This document shows positions 47,301 through 49,877 of a stretch of DNA of 64,000 bases, piece after piece (the stretch's first letter is position 1; every line of letters begins with the position of its first letter). Position numbers and translations under genes: made by a program. Origin of the DNA: Pseudanabaena mucicola FACHB-723 (GTDB lineage Bacteria; Cyanobacteriota; Cyanobacteriia; Pseudanabaenales; Pseudanabaenaceae); the NCBI RefSeq assembly GCF_014696385.1, contig NZ_JACJQB010000005.1, positions 62,001-126,000 of the forward strand, written 5' to 3'. The notes beneath the pieces are model-generated. The model saw only the letters and a list, made by a program, of their open reading frames with translations, searched no databases and was not told the origin of the DNA.

Positions 47301-48521
47301 GTGAGTGACCACAAGTGGCTGAGCATCATCGGCATTGGTGAAGATGGGCCAATGGGGATAAGTGCGGCGGCGCGATCGCAAATTGAACGTGCCGAAATTG
47401 TAGTGGGTGGTGAACGGCATCTAGCGATGTTGCCCCATGAATTGCGATCACAAAAAGCATCTCAATTAATTTGGACATCGCCAATTGAGGAGACGATTCA
47501 AAGCATCATTAACAATCGCGGCAAGTCTGTATGCGTAATCGCTAGTGGTGATCCGATGTGGTTTGGGATTGGCGCAACCCTAGTCAAACGGATTCCCATT
47601 CAAGAAGTCACGATTATTCCTGCCCCTTCTACTTTTAGTCATATTTGCGCTCGGCTGGGCTGGTCACTCACCGACGTGGAAACCCTGAGTTTGTGCGGTC
47701 GTCCCCTAGCCCTTTTGCAGTCCTATCTTTACAGCCATGCCAAGCTCTTAATTTTAAGCTCAGGCAAAGATACTCCTGCACAGGTCGCGAAACTTCTTTG
47801 CGATCGCAATTGTGGCAATAGCAAAATTACAGTTTTAGAACATCTTGGCGGTGAAAAGGAGCAAATTACGACCCAAATTGCTGAGCACTGGCAAAATTTT
47901 CCTGAATTTGCCGATCTCAATGCGATCGCGGTGGAATGTTTACCCGTCCCCGATGCTCAACTACTATCACGAATGATCGGACTTCCCGACAATGCCTATC
48001 ACCACGACGGTCAACTAACTAAACATGAAGTTCGATCCATCACTTTGTCAGCCCTTGCACCCAATGCTGGGGAATTGTTATGGGATGTCGGTGCAGGTTG
48101 TGGCTCGATTGGCATTGAGTGGATGCGAAGTCATCCCCGATGTCAGGCGATTGCGATTGAGAAGTCGCGCACCCATTTGATCAGCGAAAATGCGATCGCA
48201 CTGGGTACACCCAACCTCAAAATCATTGAAGGTAAAGCTCCTGAGGCTTTGCAAGGTTTACCGACCCCAGATGCTATTTTTATCGGCGGCGGCGCGACTG
48301 CCCATGGCTTGTTTGAGAGCTGTTGGCAAAATTTGCGATCGCAGGGGCGGCTAGTTGCCAATGTCGTTACTCTAGAGGGCGAGCAGAAGCTATTTCAATG
48401 GCAACAAAAATATGGGGGAACCCTTACCCAAATTGCGATTAGACGTGCCGAGCCAATCGGCACTTTTTTGGGATGGAAGCCGATGATGCCTGTGACGCAA
48501 TGGAAAGTCATCAAGCCTTAG
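47301..48521 (+). CDS. cobL: Precorrin-6Y C5,15-methyltransferase (decarboxylating), CbiE-CbiT fusion
   Basis: 406 residues from a GTG at 47301. The CbiE half (about 1-205) has SIIGIGEDGPMGI and VCVIASGDPMWFGIG; the CbiT half (about 215-406) has the SAM motif LLWDVGAGCGSIGIEWM. It methylates C5 and C15 of precorrin-6Y and decarboxylates the acetate side chain in cobalamin (pseudocobalamin) synthesis. It starts nine bases after the HdrB-like gene, so the two may be co-transcribed. Confidence 0.92.
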   Translation: MSDHKWLSIIGIGEDGPMGISAAARSQIERAEIVVGGERHLAMLPHELRSQKASQLIWTSPIEETIQSIINNRGKSVCVIASGDPMWFGIGATLVKRIPIQEVTIIPAPSTFSHICARLGWSLTDVETLSLCGRPLALLQSYLYSHAKLLILSSGKDTPAQVAKLLCDRNCGNSKITVLEHLGGEKEQITTQIAEHWQNFPEFADLNAIAVECLPVPDAQLLSRMIGLPDNAYHHDGQLTKHEVRSITLSALAPNAGELLWDVGAGCGSIGIEWMRSHPRCQAIAIEKSRTHLISENAIALGTPNLKIIEGKAPEALQGLPTPDAIFIGGGATAHGLFESCWQNLRSQGRLVANVVTLEGEQKLFQWQQKYGGTLTQIAIRRAEPIGTFLGWKPMMPVTQWKVIKP

Positions 48522-48531
48522 TAACTTGTTT

Positions 48532-48580
48532 CTGCAAATAAATAAAGGCGGCGCGATGCACCGCTTTTATTTATTTGCAG
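48532..48580 (+). terminator. Hairpin downstream of cobL
   Basis: Long stem CTGCAAATAAATAAAGGCGG with two mismatches on the other side and a short loop near 48555, starting 11 bases after the cobL stop. Confidence 0.65.
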
Positions 48581-48701
48581 AAAATCTAGATATGTAAAAA
48601 GTTGGTTTCTAGCGTCATTTTTACGGAATACTTATACAGATATATATAAAAAATTTTGAAGTGTGATCTCCTAAAACTACGATCACTGGGACTATTTTGA
48701 C

Positions 48702-49877
48702 ATGAAAAATTCAGATACTTACTCTGCTAGTGCTAGCGTTGATGGCAGCCAGCGTGTCACCATTGAATTTGTGGGAGGACATCATGCGGGCAAAATGCTA
48801 GGCAAAGGCAAGGCAGTCTACACAGCCACAATTCCCTACAGCTCTCTCTCTCAAAGGCTACAGACAATTCATCGTTCTGGCGGCAAAATCACTAATGTAT
48901 TTATGGAGAGTTTCTTGTCTAGTCATCCTATGGCAAGACATCAAACCGATGAAACGAATAGTCCAGAAGCACTGATTTTCACGACAGCAACATCAACTGC
49001 GATCGCAGAGACGAGTCATACCCTTGAGCAGGTAATTCAACCTGTGACTGATGTTCAAGCAACTGTTCTAGAGGATAACTCAGAAACCAATTTAGCTAAT
49101 GTGCCAGAAGATACTAAGCAGGAAATTGACGAATCAGTCAGCCCTGAACCTGCTTGCACCATTAAAATTACGCCCGAAGTAACAGTTGCAGAAACTCAAG
49201 TTGCAGAAGCAGTCGCCCCAGATGTGGAAGTAACAGAAGCACCTACCGTAGCTGAAACTGTTAAAACTTTGGTAGAAACAACGACTCCCGAATCTGTCCC
49301 TATCGAGGAAGTCGTTGCGACCAAATCTAAGCGAACTAAAAAGACCACAGAAGCCCCTGTCGAAAAAGTCGCGAAGGAAAAGAAACCAAGAGCTACTGCG
49401 AAAACTAGTCGCACTGCGAGCAAAAAAGAAACAGTTGTTCACAGTGAAGAATTACAACCAATTGCGATCACAGAGCCTGTTGTAGAACCTGTTGCCGAAA
49501 TCGTTACTGAGTCTGTACCAGTTACAGAGACTGTCTCAGCGATTCCAAAGGTTACGGAGCAAGTCAAAACAGAACCAGAACCTATTGTTGAGACAACTCA
49601 AATCGAAGAACCAGTGGTCGCGGAAGCCCCAGCAATCCTTGTTGCGGAAGTTACAGCTATTGATGTAATCCCCGAACCCGAAACCGTTGTGGCATCAACA
49701 CCAGTTGTCGCAGCAATTCCTGATCCCGAAACTGTTGTAGAAGCAACCCAAGTTGCCGAGGTGGAAGTACCTGCTAAAGCTAAAAAATCCAGATCGACAA
49801 GCAAATCAGGCAGTGGCTTCAACAAGCCCAAAAGCACTGCCAAAGAATCCAAATCAACGAAAAAGCCGAAGATTTAG
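48702..49877 (+). CDS. CpcD-like linker domain with ~320-residue disordered tail
   Basis: 391 residues. Residues about 18-67 resemble the CpcD/ApcC-type phycobilisome linker domain (PF01383-like): VTIEFVGGHHAGK, then AVYTATIPYSSLSQRL and HRSGGKITNVF. The rest (about 72-391) is low in complexity and probably disordered, dominated by Val, Glu, Thr, Pro and Ala (for example PEPIVETTQIEEPVV), with two Lys-rich patches (KSKRTKKTTEA and, at the C-terminus, KSRSTSKSGSG/KSTKKPK). I know of no described linker with such a tail. It could dock on phycobilisome rods or cores and tether them elsewhere, but phycobilisome binding is inferred from one short domain. Confidence 0.6.
   Translation: MKNSDTYSASASVDGSQRVTIEFVGGHHAGKMLGKGKAVYTATIPYSSLSQRLQTIHRSGGKITNVFMESFLSSHPMARHQTDETNSPEALIFTTATSTAIAETSHTLEQVIQPVTDVQATVLEDNSETNLANVPEDTKQEIDESVSPEPACTIKITPEVTVAETQVAEAVAPDVEVTEAPTVAETVKTLVETTTPESVPIEEVVATKSKRTKKTTEAPVEKVAKEKKPRATAKTSRTASKKETVVHSEELQPIAITEPVVEPVAEIVTESVPVTETVSAIPKVTEQVKTEPEPIVETTQIEEPVVAEAPAILVAEVTAIDVIPEPETVVASTPVVAAIPDPETVVEATQVAEVEVPAKAKKSRSTSKSGSGFNKPKSTAKESKSTKKPKI

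Follow-up and report, generated by a model that had tools for sequence, protein, structure and literature searches.

We believe, on balance, that the 391-residue protein described here is a phycobilisome rod-end (capping-type) linker, which came from the phycoerythrin operon and carries a flexible tail, the basic end of which would bind a second partner. It is a variant of the known rod-end linkers and not a new system. The gene lies in the window (the whole stretch of 64,000 nucleotides of Pseudanabaena mucicola FACHB-723 that was analysed), and its features are listed in Table 1.

Table 1. Features of the gene, its product and its surroundings (positions refer to the window; a point in the strand column marks a feature without assigned strand)
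Feature	Position	Strand	Evidence
Tetrapyrrole methylase (CobL/CbiET-like), synteny anchor	47301..48521	+	PF00590; 77% identity to its counterpart at the phycoerythrin locus of G008
Terminator-like long inverted repeat separating the methylase from the 391-residue gene	48530..48582	.	Read in the sequence; inner stem flagged, - strand
391-residue protein, CpcD-type domain and disordered tail	48702..49877	+	ORF, Pfam, 22 other genomes with homologues
CpcD-like domain predicted to fold (strand-strand-helix-strand), residues 17-68	48750..48905	+	AF2, Foldseek
Stretch matching PF01383, residues 40-66	48819..48899	+	33.7 bits against a cut-off of 27; same place in own-genome search
Acidic disordered spacer, residues 76-355	48927..49766	+	AF2 pLDDT mostly < 50; pI 4.3; omega about 0.3-0.8 in most pairs
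Internal basic patch, residues 208-243, overlapping the degenerate motif copy	49323..49430	+	20-residue windows of +2 and +5
Lysine-rich motif conserved at the C-terminus, residues 359-391 (KAKKSRSTSKSGSGFNKPKS...)	49776..49874	+	Homologue alignment, own-genome search, omega
Terminator-like inverted repeat with a T-run behind it, 3' of the stop codon	49890..49926	.	Read in the sequence; inner stem flagged

The reading frame begins with ATG, and this start codon is supported by the homologues, which share it (MKSLDI...). The original prediction of a CpcD-type domain was borne out by the profile search: PF01383 is the single Pfam domain of the protein (E 4.6e-8), although the match spans residues 40-66 only, i.e., positions 27-53 of the 55 in the profile, or about half of it. 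The same search finds five CpcD domains above the cut-off in the genome, this one among them. The extent first assigned to the domain, the N-terminal 50 residues or so, has to be corrected, since the part predicted by AlphaFold2 to be folded covers about residues 17-68 (pLDDT 86-92 over residues 41-70 and 64-78 over residues 21-40). A Foldseek search with this domain returned phycobilisome chains exclusively as hits 1-45 (best E 4e-3; probability 1.00 for the best hit and near 1 for most). With phmmer, residues 42-66 align without gaps to residues 48-72 of the Thermosynechococcus CpcD (a weak match, E 0.13). In the solved rod of that organism, CpcD residues 55-65 and 68-74 contact CpcB (PMC9205905); the best conserved part of our protein thus corresponds to most of the contact region.

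The protein shares with CpcD, the rod-terminal capping linker, the fold, the single small docking domain and the hits just described. It differs from it in failing the CpcD rod-capping equivalog model (NF058509), which gives 13.9 bits where 80 are required, in its separate branch in the domain tree and in its tail of about 315 residues. No named NCBIfam family is matched above its cut-off, and no PF00427 linker domain was found in the protein by Pfam at E <= 1. The model of the long form of ferredoxin-NADP reductase (FNR, PetH) gives 14.2 bits against a cut-off of 600, in the CpcD region only, and ApcC1 is matched by phmmer with E 1.3 only.

Relatives of the gene stand in the phycoerythrin linker-lyase operon. 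Of the 26 genomes of the genus 22 have a homologue, and so does one other genus in the family; seven of these homologues, including the one from the other genus (G032), stand just before cpeS in the order cpeC-cpeD(-cpeE)-gene-cpeS-cpeT-cpeR (G018, G001, G022, G014, G008, G017, G032). The linkers of these operons carry PF00427 together with PF01383 (the rod linkers score 162-174 bits), the genes that follow are CpeS and CpeT by Pfam, and the last one, for which there is no Pfam model, we take to be CpeR. In several genomes the stop codon of the gene overlaps or directly abuts the start of cpeS.

A search with the N-terminal domain also detected CpcD-only proteins of 69-181 residues at or near the same operon place in other families. 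All six of those scanned pass the PF01383 cut-off, none of these relatives has the GFNKPK motif, several have basic ends, the one in G262 has a Val/Glu/Thr/Pro tail, and in some, of 69-85 residues in all, the tail is very short or missing. In the tree of CpcD domains, all but one of them join the family of our protein with an ultrafast bootstrap of 90, the domains of rod linkers are set apart at 97 and canonical CpcD forms its own branch; this tree, which contains no ApcC, is of modest weight, being built on only 74 columns. An origin from the C-terminal domain of the neighbouring CpeE, suggested by blastp (45-47% identity over 49 residues), finds no support in the tree, where every rod-linker domain stands apart. 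The protein is therefore a member of a CpcD-only subfamily (whose members in other families are encoded after the last cpe linker gene and before cpeS, and often have a basic end where they have a tail) which is widespread in phycoerythrin operons, and the suggestion of a new kind of phycobilisome cap or tether was too strong: the cap or tether is supported by the CpcD match, the operon relatives and the conserved tail end, whereas special to the genus is only the long tail with GFNKPK. We found no name for the phycoerythrin-operon gene in the literature, which is weak evidence, as subscription papers lay mostly outside the search and a name may exist.

The gene order and the tree support the proposal that the gene began as a CpcD-only cap inside the phycoerythrin operon, and in the genus it appears to have been retained after phycoerythrin was lost. 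A search for CpeB gave matches of at least 75% identity in 12 of the 26 genomes of the genus; the best match in the window genome (G000) has 53% identity and is a phycocyanin, and among the biliproteins of this genome there are two phycocyanin pairs and no phycoerythrin. Of the 12 genomes with phycoerythrin 11 have the gene, as do 11 of the 14 without it. The gene is absent from two near-complete genomes of the genus (G007 and G015) and from G016, which has a cpe operon, and so it is dispensable.

The genomes without phycoerythrin are scattered over the rpoB tree, several deeper nodes of which are weak, and those that retain the gene fall at several points of it: the window genome stands beside G022, G005 and G012 (support 100), G010 and G019 beside G017, G008 and G018, and the others are a clade of five, G003, G024, and G011 with G007. 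A remnant of the operon locus is preserved in G019, a genome without phycoerythrin: the methylase, a DUF2656 gene, a HEAT-repeat gene and a cpeE lacking its first 44 codons (97% identical to the cpeE of a relative) are followed by the contig end, and the copy of our gene is close to the end of a different contig, beside the gene with which the operon locus finishes elsewhere. G010 has these same flanks with nothing but the gene between them. In G005, G012 and G013 the gene likewise sits alone, and a separate cpe operon without it is found elsewhere in the genome. Repeated gain of phycoerythrin around the gene would be a less likely account, because the gene has its place in the operon in other genera and families as well. 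If the gene was retained after the loss, it would also have to serve phycocyanin rods or some other target. Against the need for a second cap is the canonical CpcD that is also encoded in the cpc operon of the window genome.

The tail was predicted to be disordered over about 320 residues, acidic, repetitive and lysine-rich in patches. AlphaFold2 leaves about 315 residues after the folded domain unstructured (pLDDT mostly < 50 in the spacer), which is consistent with disorder and no proof of it, as the full-length run used two sequences only. The composition of residues 76-391 (14.9% T, 14.6% E, 14.6% V and 9.5% P) agrees with the prediction. There are two basic patches, an internal one at about residues 208-243 and a C-terminal one at 359-391. 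The pI is 4.3 in the acidic spacer versus 11.0 in the last stretch. The tail is repetitive in composition and not as DNA, where Tandem Repeats Finder reports only 1.9 copies of a 12-mer and almost no tandem repeats.

The C-terminal motif follows the pattern K-x-KK-x-K-x-x-SK-[SA]-G-x-GFNKPK, with seven columns invariant among the 14 aligned sequences. Searched against its own genome, the motif HMM matches the 391-residue gene only (E 5.4e-12). Among the 390 genomes of the class the motif is present in 21 genomes of the genus, and outside the genus there is one borderline match only (E 0.006, in a frame of 26 residues). Longer homologues carry internal copies, up to four in G005 and three in G004; our protein has one strong copy and a weak, degenerate one (KEKKPRATAKTSRTASKKET, residues 225-244, PSSM score 4.3 against a threshold of 3.1).

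The selection on the parts was estimated from pairwise NG86 ratios, which are individually noisy on stretches this short; the contrast between the parts is consistent. Omega is 0.18-0.57 in the N-terminal domain, mostly 0.14-0.36 in the last 34 codons (0.87 in one pair), and 0.33-0.77 in the spacer, except for two very close pairs resting on almost no changes. In pairs without phycoerythrin the values for the N- and C-terminal ends are 0.27 and 0.18 (G002-G021) and 0.32 and 0.17 (G020-G023). Both ends of the protein are thus under purifying selection, in these pairs too, and the spacer drifts. A drifting spacer flanked by two conserved ends is what is expected for a tether.

These data bear on the proposal that the protein is a plain cap, a rod-capping CpcD domain with a passive, freely drifting brush for a tail. 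The relatives from other families that have hardly any tail speak for it, as do the nearly neutral spacer and the tail length in the genus, which varies from about 110 to 460 residues (the range omits the copy in G013, which contains a run of unknown bases). A brush of this kind would not account for the conservation of the last 33 residues or so, the purifying selection on them and the internal copies in longer homologues, and we regard the plain cap as doubtful.

In the mechanism that we favour, the linker with a second binding end, the CpcD-type domain would plug the distal face of the terminal rod hexamer, as suggested by its family and gene context, and the acidic disordered spacer would hold the lysine-rich GFNKPK end at a variable distance. 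This basic end probably binds a second partner, for which acidic phycobiliprotein surfaces on neighbouring rods or phycobilisomes are our best guess; the main alternative would be the thylakoid surface, and the partner could also be unrelated to phycobilisomes. A more specific version, which we offer tentatively, is a cyanobacterial rod-end tether in which the CpcD dock, the disordered arm and the GFNKPK motif strap rods together or to another complex, a phycoerythrin cap being reused on phycocyanin rods.

A tether to the membrane or to a photosystem, with the lysine-rich end binding anionic thylakoid lipids or photosystem I, would agree with the charge of the last 40 residues, net +9. In the tail, however, we saw no anchor of a hydrophobic or amphipathic kind, and the rod ends of hemidiscoidal phycobilisomes are directed away from the membrane, both of which argue against it; we consider this tether unlikely. 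In its favour is also the example of FNR, whose CpcD domain and flexible linker keep it on rod ends and which shows that a docked flexible arm can serve other complexes (PMC9319322).

The long form of FNR, a precedent for the mechanism that we favour, resembles our protein in having an N-terminal CpcD domain as a rod-end dock followed by a flexible arm (PMC9319322), and differs in its reductase domains, which our protein lacks. A full-length reductase was seen in 34 of the 38 genomes of the family; in these it has about 300 codons (frames of about 299 residues) and no CpcD domain, and the matches begin near position 100 of the 411 in the profile (356-1240 of G000:C38, and 33 other genomes). 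The docking role of the CpcD domain thus seems not to be used by FNR in this family. Another precedent and likeness is in the red algal CaRSP scaffolds, which strap phycobilisome rods by repeated binding motifs, the CaRSP motif being thought to derive from Pfam01383; they differ in being red algal and in the CALM motif, which binds phycoerythrin beta (PMC7994580).

It is very improbable that the protein forms condensates, with basic motifs and acidic spacers driving phase separation of rods: the acidic spacer does alternate with motif copies in the longer homologues, as in G005, yet our protein has a single strong copy and a tail with almost no aromatic residues. We give equally little credence to an assembly or lyase helper acting with CpeS in phycoerythrin maturation, which the overlap or abutment with cpeS would suggest, as the gene is under selection in genomes without phycoerythrin and, in G005, G012 and G013, lies elsewhere in the genome and not in the cpe operon.

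The cohesion of phycobilisome arrays and the occupants of phycoerythrin rod ends are poorly known. A selected dock and a selected tail end with a drifting middle, outliving the pigment, suggest that rod ends offer a further site of binding; as to chromatic acclimation, they suggest that one end linker can serve both phycoerythrin and phycocyanin rods.

Several observations on the cpe loci were made in passing. The phycoerythrin operon of G005, G012 and G013 (L228, L229, L230) is of a second type, which has two CpeD-like linkers and lacks a CpcD-only gene. In G011 (L075, G011:C33) there is apparently a single rod linker, beside the gene, and no canonical CpcD above the cut-off. Two CpcD-only genes occur in one cpe operon in L175, L191 and L192; in the last two, cpeS and cpeT flank the second of them, the product of which ends in GRKGRRSKKTS. 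L197 (2106-2624, reverse strand), L199 and L175 have a CpcD-only protein of a second subtype, whose acidic tail has a hydrophobic/basic end (e.g., LIRFLLKKL). A distant cyanobacterium has, between cpeC-like and cpeS-like genes, a CpcD-only protein of 176 residues with a long Arg/Lys-rich tail (L039, 5905-6435), and in G032 a protein of 599 residues with a rod-linker sequence comes right after the cpe genes (L078, 4497-6296, reverse strand).

The promoter scan gave no forward-strand site, and overall no excess of sites over chance; the number of stem flags of the kind assigned to the upstream inverted repeat is likewise no more than chance. In G018 and G008 the methylase that directly precedes the gene in the window genome is found upstream of the phycoerythrin operon, and in G019 upstream of the operon remnant. 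A second phycocyanin alpha/beta pair is on the same contig, about 16 kb before the start of the window (L105, G000:C45:44856-45986).
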